A stretch of DNA of 64,000 bases, taken from positions 1 to 64,000 of the forward strand of contig CAJWLK010000003.1 of NCBI GenBank assembly GCA_913043255.1, written 5' to 3'. The notes beneath the pieces are model-generated. The model was not told the DNA's origin, did not search any database, and was given only the letters and a program-made list of their open reading frames with translations. A program made the position numbers and the translations under genes. How positions within the stretch are numbered: position 1 is the stretch's first letter; each line of letters starts with the position of its first letter. This stretch comes from an uncultured Gemmatimonadota bacterium. GTDB lineage: Bacteria > Gemmatimonadota > Gemmatimonadetes > Palauibacterales > Palauibacteraceae. Positions 3,750-39,463 of the stretch are shown one piece after another.

Positions 3750-5000
3750 TCAGTCATACACCTTTGCGGTATCATATCCGGCGCTTTGGAGCACTCGTTC
3801 AACTGTTTCACCAATCTTGGAATCAGGTGTCGAAGCCCCGGCTGTTAGCCCAATTGCGATCTCTCCGTCCGGAAGCCAGAAATTGTCCGTAAGGGTTTCA
3901 TCGAGCATGATCTTTTTATGTTGGATAGAACCGTCATTAATATTGATACAGGCCGCATCTTCAATATGATAAGTCTTCGTATGTTGTGCGCAGAGGTGTG
4001 CCAAGTGATTTGTGTTAGAAGAGTTGTATCCCCCAATGACTATCATGATGTCGGGTGGACTTAACATCATGTCCTCCACGGCATCTTGCCGGTCTTGAGT
4101 TGCTGAACAAATAGTATCGAAACTCCGAAATCGCTGTTCAATCGCGCTATTGCCCCACCGCTCTGAAATTGATTCTCTCAATGCAACTGCTATAGCTAAT
4201 GATTCTGAAGCCAGCATCGTCGTCTGATTCGCGACGCCTATATGCGTCAGATCTCGATCAGGGTCGAAGCCAGAAGAGCTGCATTTTTCGAATTTCTCCA
4301 TGAACAACTTCCGATCTCCTTCGCCTCTTATATAGGCGCAAACGCTCTGAGCCTCTTCCATATCGCGGACGATGAGGTGCTTGCCGTTTTCGTATTTTTT
4401 AACCTGTGAACTTGTGGCTCGTGTTTCTTCGTGCTTGTACTTGCCGTGGATTATCGCAGTGAATCCGTCGCGCGAGTAGCTTTTGACACGCTTCCACACA
4501 TTTAGTACGGATCCACACGTCGTGTCGACTAGAATGCACCCGATAGTTAGTAGCGTCTCAAAGTCGCGTAGTGTGACTCCGAAGGCTGGGATGATTACAA
4601 CATCTTCCGGTGTAACATCAGAGAAGTCGAAAACCCCACCCTCTGCAGGATAGAGAAACTCGATGTCCATCGCTTGGAGACGTCTATTTACATGCGGGTT
4701 ATGGATAATCTCACCCACAAGAAAAATTCGTCGGTCTGGGAACTTCTCTCGCGACTCATAAGCGTATTCAACCGCCCTGTCGACGCCATAGCAGAACCCA
4801 AAGCTTTTGGCGAGTCGGAAATGTAAACGGCCGACCTTCAGTTCATACCCATTTTCTTTGATGAAGGGTACGAGGGAGTTGCCGTACTCCGAATCGAGCA
4901 CGGGTTGGATCTGCTTTTTGAGTCCTAACCCGCGCCTGAAGTATCGTTCACTCTTTGGTGTTGCGGCTTTAGTGTTTGTTGGTTGTTTCGTTGTGCTCAT
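3750..5000 (-). CDS. ispH: 4-hydroxy-3-methylbut-2-enyl diphosphate reductase (long form)
   Basis: IspH/LytB, the last step of the methylerythritol phosphate route to IPP and DMAPP, is a cytoplasmic 4Fe-4S enzyme. The three cluster cysteines are visible in SFGFCYGVDRAV (about C70), DTTCGSVLNVWKRV (about C162) and DTICSATQDRQDAV (about C298), counting from the start chosen here. The frame extends upstream to 5060, but those 20 residues look non-coding and MSTTKQPTN at 5000 is a better start, giving 416 aa. This exceeds the roughly 315 aa of E. coli IspH and resembles the long form of cyanobacteria, plants and some other phyla. No other MEP gene is in the window. Confidence 0.93.
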   Translation of the reverse strand: MSTTKQPTNTKAATPKSERYFRRGLGLKKQIQPVLDSEYGNSLVPFIKENGYELKVGRLHFRLAKSFGFCYGVDRAVEYAYESREKFPDRRIFLVGEIIHNPHVNRRLQAMDIEFLYPAEGGVFDFSDVTPEDVVIIPAFGVTLRDFETLLTIGCILVDTTCGSVLNVWKRVKSYSRDGFTAIIHGKYKHEETRATSSQVKKYENGKHLIVRDMEEAQSVCAYIRGEGDRKLFMEKFEKCSSSGFDPDRDLTHIGVANQTTMLASESLAIAVALRESISERWGNSAIEQRFRSFDTICSATQDRQDAVEDMMLSPPDIMIVIGGYNSSNTNHLAHLCAQHTKTYHIEDAACININDGSIQHKKIMLDETLTDNFWLPDGEIAIGLTAGASTPDSKIGETVERVLQSAGYDTAKVYD

Positions 5001-30369: not shown

Positions 30370-31224
30370 TCAGTTAGACACAGTTATCGGCACGAAGCCG
30401 TTTGTCCAACAACATTGCGCGTGTCCCGCTCCCGTGACGCCTGAAGCATCATTGGCGCGCACACGCAGAATATATTCGCCTGGCATGCTGAATGTGACCG
30501 TAGTACTGGCCGAACCTCCAGCTGATTGCACCTCCGCTTCAACTTCGCTGAACTCCACGTCACCAGGCCCTTGGTGCTTGAACCACATTAGGTCGACTGG
30601 TTCTGCGCTTCTCCCAGCTGACGCAACACTGCCAGAGCGTGCCCCGTCATCATGAGCCCAAACGGTGACTGTAAGTGGGTTTCCTACGGCAGTATTGAGG
30701 TGTGGGGCCGTAACACCAGCTGGGCCTGCTCCCTCCAAGCCGTCTTCTGAGAACTGAAGGACAGGTGGGGTATTACCAGTACCTATACCGGAACCGGCCT
30801 CCCCGGCAAGCGCATCGATTTGCCAGTCCGGATCTAGGTGGCCCGGAATGCTGAAGGTTTGTCCATTGACGTTAAGGGTCCAGCGAACTCTTTGGGCACC
30901 GAAGTCTGCTGGGACCTTAATGGCAAACACGCCCCAGTGGCGGCGTGGTGCAAAATGCGCGGGCTGGTCTCCGTTGAACTCTTGTGGTTCTATGGAATTG
31001 TCCGGCCCCACTGGAATGTCAACGAATTCTTCAAAGTTTCGATTGAAATATCCAAATGAGATTGAGTACGTACCATCGGCGTTCTCGTACCAACCCTCAT
31101 ACGCCGGAGTCACGGTCAAGCCGCGTGCACTGTGCACGCCAAGTGGGACTTGGGCGTTCGTAGGAGTTGCTTGCCAAAGGAGAAGTGCAAGCAACAGACT
31201 AGGAAGGAAGGAGATTTTTCGCAT
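30370..31224 (-). CDS. Secreted protein of unknown function with Ig/PKD-like C-terminus
   Basis: 284 aa from ATG 31224, which has GGAG 5 nt upstream; an in-frame ATG at 31248 is possible. A signal peptide is clear (FLPSLLLALLLWQATPTNAQ). The middle shows GWYENADGTYSISFGYFNRN and HFAPRRHWGVFAIKVPADFG. A Gly-rich linker is followed by a beta-rich C-terminal domain, PLTVTVWAHDDG and TVTFSMPGEYILRVRANDASG, with PKD/cadherin-like character. It ends near GHAQCCWTNGFVPITV with vicinal cysteines. I do not recognise a named family. It sits between a creatininase-like gene (gap about 38 nt) and the cytochrome/copper protein (16 nt) and probably acts with them outside the cell membrane. Confidence 0.8.
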   Translation of the reverse strand: MRKISFLPSLLLALLLWQATPTNAQVPLGVHSARGLTVTPAYEGWYENADGTYSISFGYFNRNFEEFVDIPVGPDNSIEPQEFNGDQPAHFAPRRHWGVFAIKVPADFGAQRVRWTLNVNGQTFSIPGHLDPDWQIDALAGEAGSGIGTGNTPPVLQFSEDGLEGAGPAGVTAPHLNTAVGNPLTVTVWAHDDGARSGSVASAGRSAEPVDLMWFKHQGPGDVEFSEVEAEVQSAGGSASTTVTFSMPGEYILRVRANDASGVTGAGHAQCCWTNGFVPITVSN

Positions 31225-31262
31225 CGATTCTCCGCTCTTCATGATCATACAAGTTGGGTTAC

Positions 31263-32165
31263 CTATTGCGTGCCCCCGATAGAAGCTTGAATCGCATTTA
31301 CGGTTTGCCTGATCCGAAAGTCGAGCAACTTTTTCCCGGTTTGGATCACTTCTTCCTTAGGACTGATCGACAGCCCATTGATCGTGGCCTTACCGGCCGC
31401 AACGCGTTGATCGTATCGGACGGCAGTAGGGTCTGTGACCATCATGATGGAAGTGATCACAAAGTCGTCATGGATACCATCGTTAGTGGTCTCCGCTATC
31501 CCGAGTTCCGTGTTCATCCACTCATGGACCTCGCGGTATCGGTAAAATTCGGGAATGAAGTGTGCTGTAGCATCATGCCAGCGCTCGTTGAGCCGGGCCG
31601 CTACAGCTTCCATCCCTGACTGGTTTCCACCGCTGTCTCCGAAGAAGATGATGTGCTTGAATCCATGCGCCCTGAGACTTGCCGCCACGTCCTCAAGCAC
31701 CGCCTCGTACGTTTCTTGCCGCAAGCTAATCGTGCCTGGATAGCGCATATGCCCGCTGGGTTCATCGATATCCCCCTCTGGGACGAGTTTGATGATCGGT
31801 GCACAGAGTGCATTTCCGAGCGCACGGGCTACGCCTTCGCAGGCGCCTTGGAGTACATAATTGTGCTTTCCGGTAGCCAGATACGGTCCGTTTTGCTCTA
31901 TCCCACCTGTGGTAATCAGTGCCGTGGTCTTACCGACCGCCATCGCGTCGCGGACCTCCATCCAGGTCAACTCTTCGATCCAAACCGAGTTTAAGGCTTC
32001 GATAGGGCGCTCAGCTTGCAGTTCTGCCTGCATTTGGGCCTCGCGCTCCGCCTGCATCTGTGCGCGCTGTTCCGGGGTAAGGTCTTGCCGTTGCTGGGCC
32101 TGGATCGGTGCCACGACTAGAGCCAGTAAGGCTATGGATGGAAGAATCGACGGGGACTTTTTCAC
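31263..32165 (-). CDS. Exported creatininase-family amidohydrolase
   Basis: 300 aa with GTG start at 32165 (GAGG upstream) and signal peptide (SILPSIALLALVVAPIQAQ). A short Gln/Glu/Met-rich helix (QRAQMQAEREAQMQAELQ) follows. The creatininase fold is recognisable from TTGGIEQNGPYLATGKHN, GHMRYPGTISL, IIFFGDSGGNQSGM and NDGIHDDFV. Canonical creatininase has EQHGPHLPL and NGHGGN; here EQNGPYLATGKH and GDSGGN keep E/H/D metal-ligand character but with changed residues, pointing to another amide substrate. It is exported, unlike classical cytoplasmic creatininase. First gene of the three-gene minus operon. Confidence 0.87.
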   Translation of the reverse strand: MKKSPSILPSIALLALVVAPIQAQQRQDLTPEQRAQMQAEREAQMQAELQAERPIEALNSVWIEELTWMEVRDAMAVGKTTALITTGGIEQNGPYLATGKHNYVLQGACEGVARALGNALCAPIIKLVPEGDIDEPSGHMRYPGTISLRQETYEAVLEDVAASLRAHGFKHIIFFGDSGGNQSGMEAVAARLNERWHDATAHFIPEFYRYREVHEWMNTELGIAETTNDGIHDDFVITSIMMVTDPTAVRYDQRVAAGKATINGLSISPKEEVIQTGKKLLDFRIRQTVNAIQASIGGTQ

Positions 32166-32338
32166 GGCAAACCTCGCTTCGCCAGCGAAATGTTCATTTT
32201 TTGACGCATTAGCGTAGCATAAGAAGGGTTCGACTCACCAGTGCACCATAAACTCACGTTGAGGCGAACCCTAGCGGTGGTTAGCCTTTGTGGTTGAGAA
32301 TACCTAACACTAATAAGCATTTCCAGGAGCGGTGCTTC

Positions 32339-33346
32339 ATGTCGAAAACAATTGGTTTATTAACCATTCTGACCGTTATTAGCACCGGTTGCAGGGGGGC
32401 TGAATCCGAAACACGAGGACAGGGCGATGGCAGTTCTGACGGGGTAGAACCAGTAACTGTTGCATTCCCAACCAGCGATCCATACGCGTCCGGGTTCACT
32501 GATGAAGACTACCCGCGCGTCATTGAGCTTGCCCGGGACGTCTACGCGTACGAGCAAATTCACCATGCCGGTGGAGAGGTCATCACGACCGTAAGTATGT
32601 TTGTCGTAACCTCCGAGGGAGTATTGGTCGCGGATGGCCAAGAGAACCCCACTGAGACCCAGCTGCTAATTGAGACAATCGCTGGCATAACGGATCAGCC
32701 GATCACACAGGTGGTGGTGGCCTCCGATCACGGAGACCATACAGGAGGCAATTCTGTTTTTCCATCTGACGCAGTGTTCCTGATGCACCCGACCTCTGCT
32801 ACCACGCTTTGGCCTACGACCGGCAATGGTGGGTGGACGGGTGCGCTCGACGTGAATGAATCGACTCAACTAGATCTCGTAGAGGACGAACAAGTGCTCG
32901 AACTGGGAGGACGCGAGATCCACGTGCTTCACTTGGGTCGAGCACATACGGGAGGCGATCTTGTTGTTTACGTGCCACAAGGGAAGGTCCTTTTTATGAG
33001 CGAGACCTATCTGAAGGGCATTTTCCCCGCGATGCGATCAGCATATCCATCAGAGTGGGTGGCGATGCTTAAACGTGCCGAAGCGATGGACGTAGATGTT
33101 TACGTTCCTGGACATGGAATTATGGAATCACCCCCAATCCTGCACCACGAACTCGTCGCGTATCGTGAGGCCGTTGAACTAGTGATTGCCCAAGCCACGA
33201 AGCACCATGTTGCAGGGCTCAGTTTTGAGGAAGCTGCCGAAGTGGCGCAATTCGGTGAACTGGAGGCCTTGTCACTTCGGGATAGCCAGGTTCCTCGAGC
33301 GATCGAACGAGTTTACATGGAACTGAACGGCGAACTGCCACAGTAA
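32339..33346 (+). CDS. MBL-fold metallo-hydrolase lipoprotein
   Basis: 335 aa from ATG 32339 (AGGAGC upstream). The signal MSKTIGLLTILTVISTGC is a lipobox with Cys18. The metallo-beta-lactamase fold is seen from VASDHGDHTGGN (about 140, the metal motif with D in place of the first H), VLHLGRAHTGGDLVVYVP (about 210) with its ligand His, VLFMSETY and the late VPGHG (about 260). VFVVTSEGVLVADGQEN is the usual lead-in strand. A membrane-anchored periplasmic hydrolase is expected. It precedes a TolB-amidohydrolase gene by 31 nt on the same strand. Confidence 0.9.
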   Translation: MSKTIGLLTILTVISTGCRGAESETRGQGDGSSDGVEPVTVAFPTSDPYASGFTDEDYPRVIELARDVYAYEQIHHAGGEVITTVSMFVVTSEGVLVADGQENPTETQLLIETIAGITDQPITQVVVASDHGDHTGGNSVFPSDAVFLMHPTSATTLWPTTGNGGWTGALDVNESTQLDLVEDEQVLELGGREIHVLHLGRAHTGGDLVVYVPQGKVLFMSETYLKGIFPAMRSAYPSEWVAMLKRAEAMDVDVYVPGHGIMESPPILHHELVAYREAVELVIAQATKHHVAGLSFEEAAEVAQFGELEALSLRDSQVPRAIERVYMELNGELPQ

Positions 33347-33377
33347 GCTAGGTGAGTGTCAGAACAATAGGTGGAAT

Positions 33378-35459
33378 ATGAAAAATCGATTTAGCGTGAA
33401 TGTCGGGTTGGTATTTATTTTGGCGGGTCTTATGCCGTTATCGGCCTACAGCCAAACGGACGTTACGGTGAGTGTCGGCGCGCGTGATCCAGCGGTTGCG
33501 CCGGATGGATCGACAATCGCGGTCTCCATTTTTGGCAAGATCTGGTTAGTGCCCATCGAGGGAGGTGCCGCCCGCCAACTCACATTCGGCCCAGGTTGGG
33601 ATACGAGTCCAGCATGGTCTCCGGATGGACAATTTTTGGTCTACGGCCACGGCGGTGCGACGGGTACAGATCTTATTGAGCGAAACCTGGTCACAAACGG
33701 TGAGCGTTATTTACATCGCGGTCAGGCTGATATTGGGCAGGTCGCGTTCAGTCATGACGGAGATTACGTGTATTTCGTCAACGATCTTTCACAATATGAT
33801 GCTCACTTATGGCGCATTCCTATCGGGGGGGGGCAACCAGAACAGTTGACGTTTACTCAGAATTGGCATGAGTGGTCATTTGCCCTTAAGCCAGGTGGGG
33901 ACCAAGTGCTTGTTGAGTCCGGTCGGTATGGAGGGGCGGATCTCTACGAGATTAATGTGAATGGAGGACCTGCCAAACGGCTTACCTCAACGCTGGCGCG
34001 TGAGATGAGTGTTACGGTTAGCCCCAACGGGAGACAGCACGCTTACGTCGAGACCCATAATGGTGTCGATCACGTCGTAGTAGTGGGCGGGACTAATACG
34101 AAGAGGATCTCTACCAGCCCGTTCGACCAGAAACAGCTTGTCTTTCACCCCGACGGGAAGTCGCTTGTGATGGTAGCTGGTCGGCAGTTGTTTCGGGTAC
34201 GGACACAGGATGGGGAGACTACCCCTATCCCGTTCACGGCTCAGTTTTCGGTCGCAGACAATCCGTCTGATGACCTAGTGATCACAAACGTGCAACTGTT
34301 CGATGCGGTAGACGGAGACGTTGTACCTGAGGCTTCCATCGTCATCCGAGATGGACGGATTGCTGAAGTTCACTCGAAACCGTTTATGACAGAAGGACTC
34401 TCCGTCCCTGTAATTGACGGAGAAGGTCGTACACTTTTGCCTGGGTTAGTTGATAACCACCATCACTTTTGGTCGCCGCTGAATGGTCCAGGGTTATTGG
34501 CCAATGGGGTGACATCAATCCGAGACCCAGGATCAGCCATTGCCGATGCTATGGACTATAAGGATGCCATTCGCTTCGGAGTTCTGGCGGGTCCGGACGT
34601 GTACACCGCCGGGCCTTTAATCGATGGCCCGGGCGGATATCACCCGATGGTTGATGTAAGCATAGATGATCCGGCGGCGGCTCCTGAGTTGGTTCGAACG
34701 TTCAAAGAACAGGGAGTTGATCTTCTGAAGGTGTATTTTCAGCTCGATCTGGATGTCCTCCAGGCCGTGGTTGCGGAAGCAGCCATTCAAGGTCTTCCGG
34801 TTACAGCGCACATCGGTGTGCGAGCGAGTTGGGAGGAGGGGATGGACGCGGGGGTCAATGGGTTTAGCCACATAAGAGTTTGGCGTGATTTCCTGCCTTT
34901 GGAGAACCAAGTAGATGGACGAGATGAATCGCTCGATGGAACCCGAAACCCCATTGGCCGCTCGCAAGCCGACTGGCGCGATATCGATCCCGCCAGCCCA
35001 GAAGTAAGTGCTTTGATTCGACGTATGGCAGAGACAGGAACTGCGCTTGATCCTACTCTTTACATTCACCGGGTTGCTGACTCGGAACTGTCTGCCCGGG
35101 ATCGAGTGCGGTTCTCGATCGAAGAATATGATACGAAAGCACAGAGCTATGCGCGTATGGGAGAGTTTGTTCGATTGGCAACAGAAGCGGGAGTTCTGCT
35201 TCTGGCAGGAACGGATGGTGTACCGCTATTCAATGAACTTGAAGCCTATGCGGCTGCCGGTGTCCCCAACGTCGACATCCTGAAGTCCGCAACAGTGAAT
35301 GGAGCCCAATGGTTGGGGCTAGAGGCCGACTTTGGTACTATTGAACCCGGGAAACGTGCACATCTTATCCTCGTCGATGGAGACCCGCTCGATAACATCG
35401 AGGATCTGCGGGAAATTGATCTCGTCGTCAAGGACGGCATCATAGTCTTCCAGAGATGA
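33378..35459 (+). CDS. Exported TolB-like propeller / amidohydrolase fusion
   Basis: 693 aa with signal peptide (VGLVFILAGLMPLSAYSQ). Residues about 30-290 are PD40/TolB-type propeller blades: PAVAPDGSTIAVSIFGKIW, SPAWSPDGQFLVYG, VAFSHDGDYVYFVND, SVTVSPNGRQHAYVE, VFHPDGKSLVMV. From about 295 an amidohydrolase follows (ITNVQLFDAVDGD, IVIRDGRIAEV, LPGLVDNHHHFWSP with the metal HxH pattern, VTAHIGVRAS, LLAGTDGVPLFNE, LILVDGDPLDNIEDL). It may hydrolyse peptides or amides outside the cell; this fusion recurs in Gemmatimonadota/Bacteroidota-like genomes. Gap to the MBL gene 31 nt, to ccdA 26 nt. Confidence 0.9.
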   Translation: MKNRFSVNVGLVFILAGLMPLSAYSQTDVTVSVGARDPAVAPDGSTIAVSIFGKIWLVPIEGGAARQLTFGPGWDTSPAWSPDGQFLVYGHGGATGTDLIERNLVTNGERYLHRGQADIGQVAFSHDGDYVYFVNDLSQYDAHLWRIPIGGGQPEQLTFTQNWHEWSFALKPGGDQVLVESGRYGGADLYEINVNGGPAKRLTSTLAREMSVTVSPNGRQHAYVETHNGVDHVVVVGGTNTKRISTSPFDQKQLVFHPDGKSLVMVAGRQLFRVRTQDGETTPIPFTAQFSVADNPSDDLVITNVQLFDAVDGDVVPEASIVIRDGRIAEVHSKPFMTEGLSVPVIDGEGRTLLPGLVDNHHHFWSPLNGPGLLANGVTSIRDPGSAIADAMDYKDAIRFGVLAGPDVYTAGPLIDGPGGYHPMVDVSIDDPAAAPELVRTFKEQGVDLLKVYFQLDLDVLQAVVAEAAIQGLPVTAHIGVRASWEEGMDAGVNGFSHIRVWRDFLPLENQVDGRDESLDGTRNPIGRSQADWRDIDPASPEVSALIRRMAETGTALDPTLYIHRVADSELSARDRVRFSIEEYDTKAQSYARMGEFVRLATEAGVLLLAGTDGVPLFNELEAYAAAGVPNVDILKSATVNGAQWLGLEADFGTIEPGKRAHLILVDGDPLDNIEDLREIDLVVKDGIIVFQR

Positions 35460-35485
35460 GGGCTCTCTTTCATTAGGCAAAGTTT

Positions 35486-36253
35486 ATGATGTCACTCGCT
35501 ACTGCGATCGGTCTTCCTCCGAATATTATCATCGCTGTGTCGCAGTTTGAGCCGGCGGGAGGCTTATCCCAGGCGCTTTCGGATAACCCGATTTTGGCAC
35601 TAGGGGCGCTTTTTGCGGCAGGGGTTCTAACAAGCCTGACACCCTGTGTTTACCCGATGATCCCGATCACCGTGTCTGTTATCGCAGGCACGGCTCAAAA
35701 GAACCAGAGTCGTCGTCGGACGATCGGACTTACGCTGACTTACGCGATAGGTTTGGCAATGCTATACGCTCTTCTCGGCCTAGTAGCCGGATTGAGTGGC
35801 ACGCTGTTCGGATCGGTAAGCGCAAGCCCATGGGCTCTATTCATGATAGGGAACCTTTTGTTGCTGTTCGCACTTGCGATGTTGGACGTTTTGCCGGTGC
35901 CAGTGCCAAGGCGCTTGTTGGCTTGGGCGGCTGAACAAAAAGGTGGTTCTTACGGAGCAGTGTTTCTGCTTGGTGCTGCTTCGGGCGTTGTAACAGCACC
36001 GTGTGGCGCTCCTGCATTTGCAGTGGTACTCACTTGGGTGGCTGCAACACAAGCCGGACTCATGGGGTTTGTGTATTTATTTGTTTTCTCTATCGGGATG
36101 ATGGCCTTGGTGATCGCGGTAGGTCTCTTTTCTGGAACCATCGCCGTCCTACCACGTTCGGGAAAATGGTTAGTCTGGGTAAAGCGATTTGCGGCGGTTC
36201 TTATGATCGGTATGGCCGAGTACTTCTTCATACGTACAGGCTTTAATCTATGA
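35486..36253 (+). CDS. CcdA/DsbD-type transmembrane thiol electron transporter
   Basis: 255-aa membrane protein corresponding to the membrane core of DsbD/CcdA. Six or more hydrophobic helices follow a short periplasmic leader. The two redox cysteines are in LTSLTPCVYPMIPI (about C54) and VVTAPCGAPAFAV (about C171), the classical pair that carries electrons from cytoplasmic thioredoxin to the periplasm. There is no periplasmic alpha or gamma thioredoxin domain fused to it. The separate thioredoxin gene overlaps it by 4 nt (ATGA at 36250-36253) and likely accepts the electrons. It could be named ccdA or scsB-like; function as a reductant importer is well supported. Confidence 0.92.
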   Translation: MMSLATAIGLPPNIIIAVSQFEPAGGLSQALSDNPILALGALFAAGVLTSLTPCVYPMIPITVSVIAGTAQKNQSRRRTIGLTLTYAIGLAMLYALLGLVAGLSGTLFGSVSASPWALFMIGNLLLLFALAMLDVLPVPVPRRLLAWAAEQKGGSYGAVFLLGAASGVVTAPCGAPAFAVVLTWVAATQAGLMGFVYLFVFSIGMMALVIAVGLFSGTIAVLPRSGKWLVWVKRFAAVLMIGMAEYFFIRTGFNL

Positions 36254-36801
36254 ATGGCATGCTGAAGGCTCATGCGGTTCGAGACTGCATAGTAATGATA
36301 TGGTTCGCCGTCCTTGTAGTTGGTTCGTTCATTCCGAGTTCACTCTTCGCACAGGCTGGACAGGGTCAGGTGGGCCTCGCAATCGGAACCATGGGTCCCA
36401 GGGCCGCACTCCAAGACCTTGAGGGTAATGATGTTGAACTTCTGGACTTTGTTTCTGACAAACCGACGCTGATCGAATTTTGGGCTTCATGGTGCGAGAA
36501 CTGTGAAGCTCTTCAACCGCAGCTCGATGATATCCATGCCAAATATGGCGATGAGGTCAACGTAGTAGCCGTGGCAGTAGCTGTTTCACAGTCGTTGCGG
36601 CGTGTTAAGAGACATGTCGACGAGCACGGAGCCGGATATCCGTATTTGTGGGATTCCCGCGGCAATGCGGTACGCGCATATGAAGCCCCCACAACCTCTG
36701 TGGTGGTTATACTTGATGCCGCGGGTAAAGTGGCCTACACAGGAGTCGGTGCCGGCCAGGATCTAATTGGAGCGATGGGAAAAGTGGTGGGCGGCCCGTA
36801 G
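36250..36801 (+). CDS. TlpA/ResA-like exported thioredoxin
   Basis: 183 aa. The N-terminal hydrophobic segment (IVMIWFAVLVVGSFIPSSLFAQ) is a signal or anchor. The thioredoxin fold shows LIEFWASWCENCEALQPQ with the redox pair WCENC near residues 80-83, and a cis-Pro region EAPTTSVVVILDAAGKVAYTGVG. The 4-nt overlap with the CcdA gene couples their translation, so this is the periplasmic partner reduced by CcdA. The gene converges on the selenocysteine-type peroxiredoxin gene, a likely client (inference). Confidence 0.92.
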   Translation: MNGMLKAHAVRDCIVMIWFAVLVVGSFIPSSLFAQAGQGQVGLAIGTMGPRAALQDLEGNDVELLDFVSDKPTLIEFWASWCENCEALQPQLDDIHAKYGDEVNVVAVAVAVSQSLRRVKRHVDEHGAGYPYLWDSRGNAVRAYEAPTTSVVVILDAAGKVAYTGVGAGQDLIGAMGKVVGGP

Positions 36802-36814
36802 CGACCACCCACCA
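36785..36814 (+). terminator. Possible terminator after ccdA-tlpA
   Basis: TGGTGGG (36785-36791) pairs with CCCACCA (36808-36814), followed by AAATATCATTTTA. The stop codon of the thioredoxin gene lies in the loop. The T-tract is imperfect, so strength is uncertain. Confidence 0.45.
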
Positions 36815-36867
36815 AATATCATTTTACGTCAATAAGTTCTGCTAACGGTCGTTGTTCGCTACGGGCC
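36793..36867. repeat. 12-bp inverted repeat spanning both convergent stop codons
   Basis: GGCCCGTAGCGA (36793-36804) is the exact reverse complement of TCGCTACGGGCC (36856-36867). The thioredoxin stop lies in the left arm and the peroxiredoxin stop in the right arm. RNA from either strand could fold into a long stem, possibly ending or stabilising the converging transcripts. It competes with the hairpin at 36785-36814. Confidence 0.6.
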
Positions 36868-37431
36868 GTCTGGCTCTGGTGTTACGTCATCAATAATTGC
36901 GGCTAATTCTTCGTATGCCGTTGGGTCAACCTGATTGAAGCGTGGAATCACGCCCGCTATTCGGCCGTCGGGTCCGATAACAATCACTGCACGGCTATCC
37001 ACCATATTGTTGTCTCGGAGTCCGCCTCCGTAGGAAGCGTAGGTAGCCCCATCGTTATCGACATCGCTCGCGAATAGAAAAGGGAAGTCCTCGTCTTTAA
37101 GCCATGAGCCCAACTCTTCCGGCGAATCATTCGAAATTCCAACAAGAACAACGTTACGTCCCTCGTTGAATACACTGGCGTACTGATCACGGTACGCTTT
37201 CATCTGAACCGTTCAGCCAGGGGTCCTAACGCGGAAAAAGAACGCTAATACCACGGTTTCGCCTCGATAATCACTGAGGCGGATTGGTTCTTTAAGTAGA
37301 CCATATCGAGTGGCGCCCGGCAGAGAAAAATTGGGCGCCATCTCTCCTTTGGCGATCAAGCCTGAGTCCTGTGCGCTTATCGGAAGTGCTACCCCCAGCG
37401 CAAAAACTCCGGTCAGAAGAAGTCGACGCAT
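36859..37431 (-). CDS. Exported peroxiredoxin with in-frame UGA at the peroxidatic Cys site (predicted selenoprotein, Sec73)
   Basis: Reading through one TGA (37213-37215) gives a 190-aa AhpC/TSA-family peroxiredoxin. Upstream of it, MRRLLLTGVFALGVALPISAQ is a signal peptide, then GEMAPNFSLPG, IRLSDYRGETVVLAFFFRVRTPG. Downstream, in the same frame, TVQMKAYRDQYASVFNEG, VVLVGISNDSPEELGSWLK and FPFLFASD continue the fold. In relatives the intervening residue is the peroxidatic Cys (TxGCTxQMxAYRDQ). Here its codon is TGA, so selenocysteine is predicted. Neither half contains a Cys, which gives a 1-Sec enzyme. The Pro of the usual PxxxTxxC motif is Phe, while the Thr is kept. A SECIS-like hairpin follows. 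AGGA lies 7 nt before the ATG. A sequencing error or nonsense mutation is the alternative. Confidence 0.85.
37178..37197 (-). promoter_or_regulatory. SECIS-like hairpin downstream of the in-frame UGA
   Basis: On the minus strand GCGTAC (37197-37192) pairs perfectly with GTACGC (37183-37178) around the 8-nt loop CGTGATCA. The loop begins 21 nt after the TGA. As I recall the published bacterial SECIS consensus (apical loop of about 3-14 nt with a G in its first two positions, about 16-37 nt from UGA), this fits: the second loop base is G. A lower stem TGAA/TTCA could extend it. The hairpin is inside coding sequence, as bacterial SECIS elements are. Confidence 0.65.
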
Positions 37432-37626
37432 CTCTCAATCCTTTCGTGCGTGTGAAACCACTTGGGACACGGTGGTGCGTGGCGCTGATTCGCGCCAGAC
37501 CGTCGCGGGCCCCTGATCGCAACGGAGTACTAGAATGCGGCCGACGGATTCGCAGAAGTGGAGGAGAGTGTACGTTCAATGGGCCAATCGTATTGAATCC
37601 AACTTATCGCCTTGAGGCATGCCCTT
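37432..37626. promoter_or_regulatory. Divergent intergenic region between peroxiredoxin and aminotransferase
   Basis: 195 nt without a credible gene, separating the divergent peroxiredoxin and aminotransferase. It should hold both promoters. I could not assign a specific operator or -10/-35 pair. Confidence 0.3.
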
Positions 37627-38862
37627 ATGTCACGAAGCTGCTTGATTCCTGCCGCCGCTCAACGCGATGGCAATGATCCAATCTTTGCCTTGCACGGTGA
37701 GGCAGTACGGAGAGCGGAGGCAGGCGAATCAATCCTTAACTCAACACTCGGCGCTCTTATGGATGACGAGGGCCACCTTGCCATCATGCCTTCGGTTTCA
37801 GAGGCCCTTGCCGGTATCCCACCCCAAAGTGCGGCGGGCTACGCACCGATAATCGGCGACTTGTCATTTCGAGAGGCTGTAATCGCGGATGTGCTGCCGG
37901 CCAAGTTGGTCTCTCAGGCAGTCGCAGTCGCGACGCCGGGGTGCACCGGCGCCATCCACCATGCCATGATGAACTTTCTTGAACCTGGCCAAGCTGCATT
38001 GGCGCCAAGTTACTACTGGGGACCGTATCAGACGATTGCAAACCATACCGGTCGTTCCGTGCAGACATTCAATATGTTTGATGAAGAGACGCGGCTTGAT
38101 CTGGAAGCTTTCGAGGCGACTATAAATAACCAGATGGTGGAACAGGGCCGAGCCCTCGTCCTATTCAATTTTCCATGTAATAACCCCACGGGGTATTCGC
38201 TTGACGAAGCAGAATGGGAGGCCGTGGCGGACATCATCCTCAACATGGGGAAAATTGGCCCGGTCGCCTTTCTACTTGACCATGCATATGCTCGCTTCGG
38301 CAGCGATGCCTCGAACCGTTGGGTTGAACATCTACCTAAGATGTTAGAATCGGCCACGGTCCTAATTGGTTGGACAATCTCGAAATCGTTCGCACAATAT
38401 GGCGCACGTGTCGGCGCATTACTGGCACTCAATCACGATTCTTCTGAGCGTGAACTCATTGCAAATGCACTTGGATATTCATGTCGTGCGACATGGTCTA
38501 ACTGTAACCACCTCGGTCTTCTCGCCGCTGCAAGACTGCTCACAGACTCCGAGCTCAGAGAACGGTCGACGAAAGAACGTGAGGGAATGATCCACTTGCT
38601 TAACGAACGAGTGGAGGTGTTCAACGATTTGGCAGGATTGGCCGATTTGCATTATCCCAGATATGAGGGGGGCTTTTTTGTCTCTGTGTTCACGCCAGAT
38701 GCGGATAAGACGGCTGATACTATGCGTGAAGCGGGTGTGTTTGTTGTCCCGATGCCGGGGGCGGTTCGGGTCGCGCTGTGCACGACCCCTGCATCAACGA
38801 TTCCTCGGTTGGTAGATGCGCTAGATGTTGGGGTTCGGGCTGCGAAGAGTATCGCTCCCTAA
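37627..38862 (+). CDS. Class I/II PLP aminotransferase
   Basis: About 411 aa from ATG 37627; a TTG five codons upstream (37612) is an alternative start. The fold-type I aspartate-aminotransferase core is visible: TPGCTGAIHHAMMNFLEPG (about 103), substrate/PLP-binding APSYYWGPYQTI, FNFPCNNPTGYSLDEAEW (conserved NNPTG), LLDHAYARF (PLP-pyridine Asp and Tyr) and the Schiff-base Lys in GWTISKSFAQYGARVG (about 253). The Arg near the C-terminus (GAVRVALCTTP) should bind the substrate carboxylate. The amino-donor specificity is not readable. It is divergent from the peroxiredoxin and followed 46 nt later by a rhodanese gene. Confidence 0.92.
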   Translation: MSRSCLIPAAAQRDGNDPIFALHGEAVRRAEAGESILNSTLGALMDDEGHLAIMPSVSEALAGIPPQSAAGYAPIIGDLSFREAVIADVLPAKLVSQAVAVATPGCTGAIHHAMMNFLEPGQAALAPSYYWGPYQTIANHTGRSVQTFNMFDEETRLDLEAFEATINNQMVEQGRALVLFNFPCNNPTGYSLDEAEWEAVADIILNMGKIGPVAFLLDHAYARFGSDASNRWVEHLPKMLESATVLIGWTISKSFAQYGARVGALLALNHDSSERELIANALGYSCRATWSNCNHLGLLAAARLLTDSELRERSTKEREGMIHLLNERVEVFNDLAGLADLHYPRYEGGFFVSVFTPDADKTADTMREAGVFVVPMPGAVRVALCTTPASTIPRLVDALDVGVRAAKSIAP

Positions 38863-38908
38863 GGAAGTTGACAGGTGGGTTCTCATGGAACAGAGGGAAC
38901 GTAAATAA

Positions 38909-39463
38909 GTGAAAGTGCGAGCTAAATTGAAATATGAAATCTTGCGAAAGTTCAGCACTGAAGTCCGTCCGTTGGCTATTGTGGTAGGTATGCTACTTGG
39001 GTGTGGTGAAGGCCCATTACTTACGGACATTGAAAAGCTGTCCCGCGTGGAAGAGATGGTTTTAGCTCTAGAAAAACGCTTTCCTGATGTTGAAACGATC
39101 ACCGTCGATGAAGTCGGAAGACTTCTTGAAAAAGACAGTGTTGTGCTGGTCGATGTTCGTGAGGCCAAAGAGCAAAAAGTCTCAATGATCCCCGGTGCGA
39201 TCTCGGTAGAAGAGTTTGAGGATGACGAGGATCGGTATGAAGAGCTAACAGTTGTGGCCTACTGTACAATCGGCCATAGAAGCTCAGAGTATGCCCAGCA
39301 GCTTACTCAGCGCGGGCGGCGTGTTCTGAACCTAAGAGGGAGCATCCTTGCGTGGGCACATGCGGGAGGACCGCTCGTGCTTAATAGTGAAGCCACCCGA
39401 ACGTTACACGTCTATGGAAGCAACTGGGATCTTGCACCGAGCCGCTTTGAAACGATCTGGTAG
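38909..39463 (+). CDS. Single-domain rhodanese-like protein with N-terminal hydrophobic segment
   Basis: 184 aa with GTG start at 38909. The rhodanese domain (about 75-165) shows ITVDEVGRLLEKDSVVLVDVR, IPGAISVEEF and the active-site loop VAYCTIGHRSSEYAQ (Cys near 119), then VLNLRGSILAWAHAGGPLV. The N-terminal PLAIVVGMLLGCGEG (about 21-35) may be a membrane anchor, signal or lipobox (LLGC). It is a predicted sulfurtransferase or persulfide carrier. It follows the aminotransferase by 46 nt and converges on the S10 peptidase gene. Confidence 0.87.
   Translation: MKVRAKLKYEILRKFSTEVRPLAIVVGMLLGCGEGPLLTDIEKLSRVEEMVLALEKRFPDVETITVDEVGRLLEKDSVVLVDVREAKEQKVSMIPGAISVEEFEDDEDRYEELTVVAYCTIGHRSSEYAQQLTQRGRRVLNLRGSILAWAHAGGPLVLNSEATRTLHVYGSNWDLAPSRFETIW

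Follow-up and report, generated by a model that had tools for sequence, protein, structure and literature searches.

The peroxiredoxin-like locus described here raises the question of whether a TGA codon lying within its reading frame marks a broken gene or a selenocysteine (Sec) residue. The window, i.e. the whole stretch of 64,000 nucleotides that was analysed, carries this frame on its minus strand. We interpret the locus as a selenoprotein gene for an exported peroxiredoxin with a single Sec residue, belonging to the BCP/PrxQ-like AhpC-TSA group, and assign a probability of roughly 0.85 to this reading.

Reading frame, predicted product and relatives

The Sec-containing peroxiredoxin gene (36859-37431, minus strand) starts with an ATG at 37431-37429, stops at a TAG at 36861-36859 and encodes 190 residues on read-through. 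The plus strand has no open frame across the same interval. These coordinates were given correctly by an earlier sequence-only reading of the DNA, to which the minus strand can now be added. Based on its sequence, AAAGGA at 37439-37444 (minus strand), 7 nt upstream of the ATG, is a likely ribosome-binding site. The frame contains exactly one in-frame TGA, at 37213-37215 (minus strand), corresponding to residue 73 and separating two peroxiredoxin halves as the earlier reading had described; the translation also bears out its statement that neither half contains a cysteine. With Cys read in place of Sec, the Pfam models AhpC-TSA (cut-off 26) and Redoxin (cut-off 26.6) match the product at 79.5 and 59.7 bits, respectively. 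In the alignment, residue 73 falls on the Cys of the 'CT' pair of solved BCP-like proteins, in agreement with the proposal that the TGA occupies the peroxidatic position. The UGA thus sits where homologues have Cys, and the TxxU motif is present as TPGU. The interpretation of this gene as encoding a Sec protein, a peroxiredoxin with UGA at its peroxidatic site, is supported by these sequence features.

The predicted structure of the product has a mean pLDDT of 88.0 and a pTM of 0.82, with low values mainly at residues 1-22. Sec73 is close to the start of a helix formed by residues 71-82, and the best PDB matches found with Foldseek are BCP and Prx chains (9a4d, 5enu, 3hjp, 3drn). Residues 1-20 (37372-37431, minus strand), MRRLLLTGVFALGVALPISA, were judged by eye to be a probable signal peptide; the pLDDT is under 50 at residues 1-4 and 8-22. 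The N-termini of relatives, also inspected by eye, are similar and end in AQ. From the appearance of the N-terminus, the peroxiredoxin is probably exported. Arg147 (36991-36993, minus strand) is invariant in 23 aligned sequences and is a candidate for the catalytic arginine of peroxiredoxins.

A search of genome contigs yielded 78 related loci, named as Gemmatimonadota or its subgroups in 74 cases, Gammaproteobacteria in three and BD2-11 clade in one. Two of them (L095 and L096) miss the codon of interest, leaving 76 usable relatives. The codon at residue 73 is TGA in 75 of the 76, down to 47% identity, and TGC in the remaining one (L097). Among all the genes read, this position holds either a Sec codon or Cys and nothing else. 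Considering that the same TGA is found in 75 other assemblies, a sequencing error is very unlikely, and the recurrence of the same gene with the same codon in many relatives makes the gene look real rather than broken. The frames of the relatives are open apart from the shared TGA, so that the scattered extra stops named by the sequence-only reading as evidence against a selenoprotein were not found. An additional TAG does occur in some of the matches listed (e.g. L123-L126). It was considered as a second stop inside the gene and rejected, since the frames of the near relatives L039, L043 and L045 terminate at this TAG, which is therefore most likely the gene's own end. Downstream of the codon, none of the 76 relatives has a Cys as far as each contig reaches. 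In a wider tree set of 130 Sec genes and 38 Cys genes, a downstream Cys is present in one Sec gene (L166, with two of them in a short frame of 86 residues) and in none of the Cys genes.

The nearest named relative of the window peroxiredoxin on the tree is Candidatus Palauibacter poriticola, which places the source organism probably within or close to the Palauibacteraceae. It is noted that L039, L043 and L045 are titled Gammaproteobacteria and that their copies cluster with those of Gemmatimonadota; these are probably mislabelled genome bins. Tandem paralogues were also observed, a TGA copy adjoining a TGC or TGT copy at L170, L173, L174, L201 and L202.

Selenocysteine machinery and the downstream hairpin

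The source assembly (2,454,249 bases in 28 contigs, 93.9% complete) was searched for the genes of Sec synthesis and insertion. All four that the sequence-only reading had proposed to look for, selA, selB, selC (tRNA-Sec) and selD, are present. The tRNA-Sec scores 74.1 bits (gathering score 47), has the anticodon TCA according to ARAGORN and is located on a contig other than that of the window; within the 64,000-nt window, Rfam gave no match at gathering scores and ARAGORN no tRNA. The protein matches are 361 bits for selB (cut-off 242), 501 bits for selA (cut-off 268) and 372 bits for selD (cut-off 125). The selD gene (L019, G000:C1:189470-190399) would also encode a selenoprotein, its frame being interrupted by a TGA within GAGUGCK that is followed by a strong hairpin. 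Seven AhpC-TSA matches were found in the source genome, two of which have an in-frame TGA: the window peroxiredoxin and L218 (G000:C2:145165-145605). The latter reads FFRGRWUPYC and is probably a UxxC Prx-like selenoprotein.

A hairpin 20 nt in length begins 15 nt past the UGA (37178-37197, minus strand) and is predicted to be the SECIS element. It consists of a GCGUAC stem, a CGUGAUCA loop and a GUACGC stem, with the loop located 21 nt from the UGA. The loop of 8 nt starts with CGU, the stem has 6 bp and the energy is -8.0 kcal/mol. For bacterial SECIS elements, the accessible text of a 2026 review gives a loop of 3-9 nt with a G in the first two loop positions, a stem of 4-16 bp, a distance of 16-37 nt from the UGA and an energy of -7.5 kcal/mol or lower; the window hairpin lies within all of these limits (PMC13188914). 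Its folding taken alone is no better than that of shuffled sequences (z -0.89, 40 of 200 shuffles as good).

To compare the hairpin among genes, 193 gene places (159 with TGA and 34 with Cys) were reduced, by removal of short flanks and duplicates, to 133 distinct Sec genes and 31 distinct Cys genes. Down to its wobble bases, the 20-mer is the same in 124 of the 133 Sec genes versus none of the 31 Cys genes. All six stem pairs can form in 132 of the Sec genes versus four of the Cys genes, the sole Sec gene with a broken outermost pair being L141 (TCGTAC for GCGTAC). Within the Sec genes, synonymous entropy averages 0.06 bits over the six codons of the hairpin versus 1.20 bits over 27 other well-conserved codons; the corresponding six codons of the Cys genes average 0.72 bits. 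Among the frozen codons are CGT and GAT, whose usual counterparts in the Cys genes are CGC (24/31) and GAC (21/30). Energies of -7.5 kcal/mol or lower are not specific to the Sec genes, being found in 132 of the 133 and in 19 of the 31 Cys genes. Since the folding energy separates neither the hairpin from shuffles nor, with any sharpness, Sec genes from Cys genes, the case for the hairpin rests on its conservation; the stem is so nearly invariant that covariation cannot serve as a test. Two Cys genes, L188 (hit at 4655) and L191 (hit at 1086), keep both GCGTAC and GTACGC with a changed loop. These halves are possibly SECIS remnants, or are there by chance. On the other side of the codon, CGT accounts for 70 of the 77 distinct Sec genes with Arg at -2, and 116 of 132 have GGC at -1; the bases directly before the UGA look constrained as well.

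Sec and Cys forms across Gemmatimonadota

A phylum search found a peroxiredoxin match at E 1e-12 or better in 325 of 395 genomes and selB over its cut-off in 281 of the 395. Among the matches listed, 209 of the 325 matched genomes could be classed as Sec or Cys. The 116 unclassed genomes include G209 and G175, in which the matches miss the codon, and 14 with a best match weaker than 1e-30; the latter were dropped as presumed distant Cys paralogues, and eight of the 14 have selB. A selB match at 1e-60 was found in 174 of 187 TGA genomes versus 2 of 22 genomes without TGA (Fisher p 2.8e-17, uncorrected for kinship and among the matches listed). Each of the 13 TGA genomes without a strong selB match has selA (11/13) or tRNA-Sec (11/13). 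The association is not a strict one: in G006 and G081 a Cys form coexists with selB, selA and tRNA-Sec. The Cys form of G095 occurs without any of the three.

In a tree of 76 hand-picked rows, a single Cys clade was rejected (p-AU 0.0005), which supports more than one switch between Sec and Cys within the phylum, as judged from these sequences. L130 and L131 are grouped with 23 Sec genes at an SH-aLRT of 95 and L177 joins at 99; most inner forks are weaker. In this unrooted tree, which does not show the direction of the changes, the placement of these three genes suggests changes from Sec to Cys, with gene replacement as an alternative. According to the accessible parts of the literature, most documented changes from Sec to Cys in bacteria concern FdhA and SelD (PMC13188914), and a 2006 survey counted no Sec-to-Cys and five Cys-to-Sec events for Prx (PMC1794560).

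A second difference between the two forms is found seven residues before the active site. The motif of Sec peroxiredoxins is described as highly conserved PxxxTxxU in the accessible text of PMC13188914. By alignment to this motif, its Pro position (-7 from Sec) is occupied in the window protein by Phe66 (37234-37236, minus strand), so that the full motif is absent. We therefore place the protein as a variant rather than as a standard TxxU Sec peroxiredoxin. Among the 133 distinct Sec genes, position -7 is Phe in 96, Pro in 19, Tyr in 14, Ile in two, and Ser and Val in one each; all 31 Cys genes have the motif Pro, which 114 of the 133 Sec genes have lost. These counts are not independent of one another. 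Position -3 is Thr or Ser in 131 of the 133 Sec genes. A quick tree of 168 rows, from which both trait positions had been masked, implies no fewer than 10 changes of the codon and nine of the Pro/non-Pro state. Only three independent pairs linking Sec with loss of Pro lie on starred branches of this tree, too few for significance of the link.

We tentatively propose, at slightly less than even odds, that Gemmatimonadota have long and widely possessed the exported one-Sec peroxiredoxin, and that Sec in it frees the site from the Pro of PxxxTxxC. With Sec present, and only then, position -7 would drift to Phe, Tyr, Ile, Val or Ser; the lineages losing SelB would have gone from Sec to Cys and have Pro, and Sec and Pro would be interchangeable in function.

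Proposed function, alternatives and known systems

Two genes encoding thiol-disulfide proteins are found next to the peroxiredoxin on the opposite strand. The TlpA/thioredoxin-like gene (36250-36801, plus strand) is convergent with it and scores over the cut-offs of Pfam AhpC-TSA, Redoxin and Thioredoxin; its product has a signal-like N-terminus and a WCENC motif. A CcdA/DsbD-type membrane gene (35486-36253, plus strand; Pfam DsbD_TM, 149 bits) accompanies it. At least 2 kb of downstream sequence is available for 70 of 75 Sec loci. A convergent tlpA lies within 1.2 kb in 51 of these 70, with CxxC in every one, and is followed by ccdA in 49 of the 70; no convergent tlpA is nearby in the other 19. 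Since the product has no second thiol, turnover needs an outside thiol reductant. The conserved adjacency makes the TlpA-like protein, supplied by the CcdA-type protein, a plausible best candidate for the electron source, although convergent genes do not form an operon. The remaining neighbours (30370-39463) include metallo-beta-lactamase-fold, amidohydrolase, creatininase-family, aminotransferase and rhodanese-like genes, for which nothing but their position suggests a connection with selenium.

In the proposed mechanism, which is strongly supported by comparison among genes at its first step, the ribosome would decode the UGA as Sec by means of SelB and Sec-tRNA, guided by the downstream hairpin, and would continue to the TAG at 36859. 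The N-terminal signal, to judge from its look, would carry the protein over the inner membrane. As expected from its family, Sec73 would attack H2O2 or another hydroperoxide and be converted to a selenenic acid. The oxidised Sec73 may then be reduced by the neighbouring TlpA-like protein, itself fed by the CcdA-type protein, a step suggested by conserved adjacency.

Several alternatives were weighed against this selenoprotein reading. A pseudogene or sequencing error, i.e. a nonsense change in an ordinary Cys peroxiredoxin, would account for a TGA interrupting the frame and agrees with the existence of relatives with TGC, yet it is hardly credible for a codon kept as TGA by 75 of 76 relatives with identities as low as 47%, in otherwise open frames, with a frozen hairpin only alongside TGA and with the Sec machinery present in the source genome. 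It is also very improbable that the UGA is decoded as some other residue or passed by general read-through. Sec in the protein is a prediction from sequence comparison, but the codon is at the peroxidatic Cys position, Cys is the only alternative residue among the genes read, selB accompanies the TGA forms, and ordinary genes of the relatives also end in TGA. It is somewhat easier to imagine, and still quite improbable, that the conservation of the 20-mer has a different cause, for instance that it serves inside the gene as a regulatory site or as a binding site for a protein. The 20-mer is a near-palindrome and its fold in the window does not surpass shuffles; such a site would have to be identical in 124 of 133 Sec genes, missing from all 31 Cys genes of the same family and within the SECIS limits given in the accessible text of PMC13188914.

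The alternative concerning function is unlikely but deserves more weight. The product could be an exported selenoprotein whose main role, instead of peroxide reduction, lies in the CcdA-TlpA pathway, where it would be a repair protein or a partner in thiol-disulfide exchange. This role would fit both the absence of the motif Pro from 114 of 133 Sec genes and the thiol-disulfide nature of the neighbours. Against it are the retention of Thr or Ser three residues before Sec (131 of 133 Sec genes), the presence of Arg147 in 23 of 23 sequences, the lack of a second thiol in the product and the Prx fold.

Selenoproteins are rarely kept by aerobic bacteria according to the accessible text of the 2026 review (PMC13188914). 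Haem-copper oxidase genes were matched twice in the source genome, at 517 and 70 bits (each exceeding the cut-off), so that the organism probably respires oxygen. Many genomes of one phylum, including at least one with haem-copper oxidase genes, appear to keep a Sec peroxidase of exported look. More than one Sec/Cys switch together with a linked active-site difference offers a natural series in which the benefit of Sec to an enzyme, and the conditions under which Sec is dispensable, could be studied. The gene may be annotated in two pieces or as broken in many genomes.

In the accessible portions of the open-licence literature on selenoproteins or selenocysteine in Gemmatimonadota, we found no report of this Sec peroxiredoxin gene. 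The string 'Gemmatimonad' has no occurrence in the accessible text of PMC13188914, PMC5029168, PMC5330540, PMC2398784 and PMC9312934, and appears in that of PMC8318568 and PMC3281104 in taxon lists only. The available text of a study of hadal MAGs reports selA, selB and selD in about half of them and Gemmatimonadota among the active groups, the two not being linked (PMC8938466); that of PMC9727886 likewise makes no link between selenium genes and Gemmatimonadota.

TxxU Sec peroxiredoxins themselves are a long-known family, as the accessible texts of PMC1088965, PMC2398784, PMC1794560 and PMC9312934 indicate. The window protein shares with them (Prx, PF00578/COG1225; e.g. PrxU of Eubacterium acidaminophilum, named in the references of PMC13188914 and PMC9312934 as far as accessible) the AhpC-TSA domain and Sec at the peroxidatic site after TxG, but has Phe in place of the motif Pro, an apparent signal peptide and no other Cys. 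Its score against the PrxU model NF040737 of NCBIfam is 34 bits, far from the cut-off of 270, and none of the NCBIfam models reaches its cut-off for this protein. With the BCP/PrxQ-type thiol peroxidases (PDB 9a4d, 5enu, 3hjp, 3drn) it shares fold and sequence group, differing in having Sec for Cys and no second Cys; the PRK09437 score is 57 bits against a cut-off of 140. The Prx-like thiol:disulfide oxidoreductase selenoproteins (PF00578, UxxC) also combine the AhpC-TSA domain with Sec, and L218 (WUPYC) of the same genome has this look. However, theirs is a UxxC pair, whereas the window protein has a lone Sec. The Cys peroxiredoxins of other Gemmatimonadota (e.g. L130, L131, L176, L177) belong to the same family and also have no second Cys downstream, but carry a TGC or TGT codon, Pro at -7 and no frozen 20-mer. 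Taken from these sequence comparisons, the chemistry and the UGA recoding would be known, while the loss of the motif Pro, the apparent export and the wide spread through one phylum are the unusual features of this peroxiredoxin.
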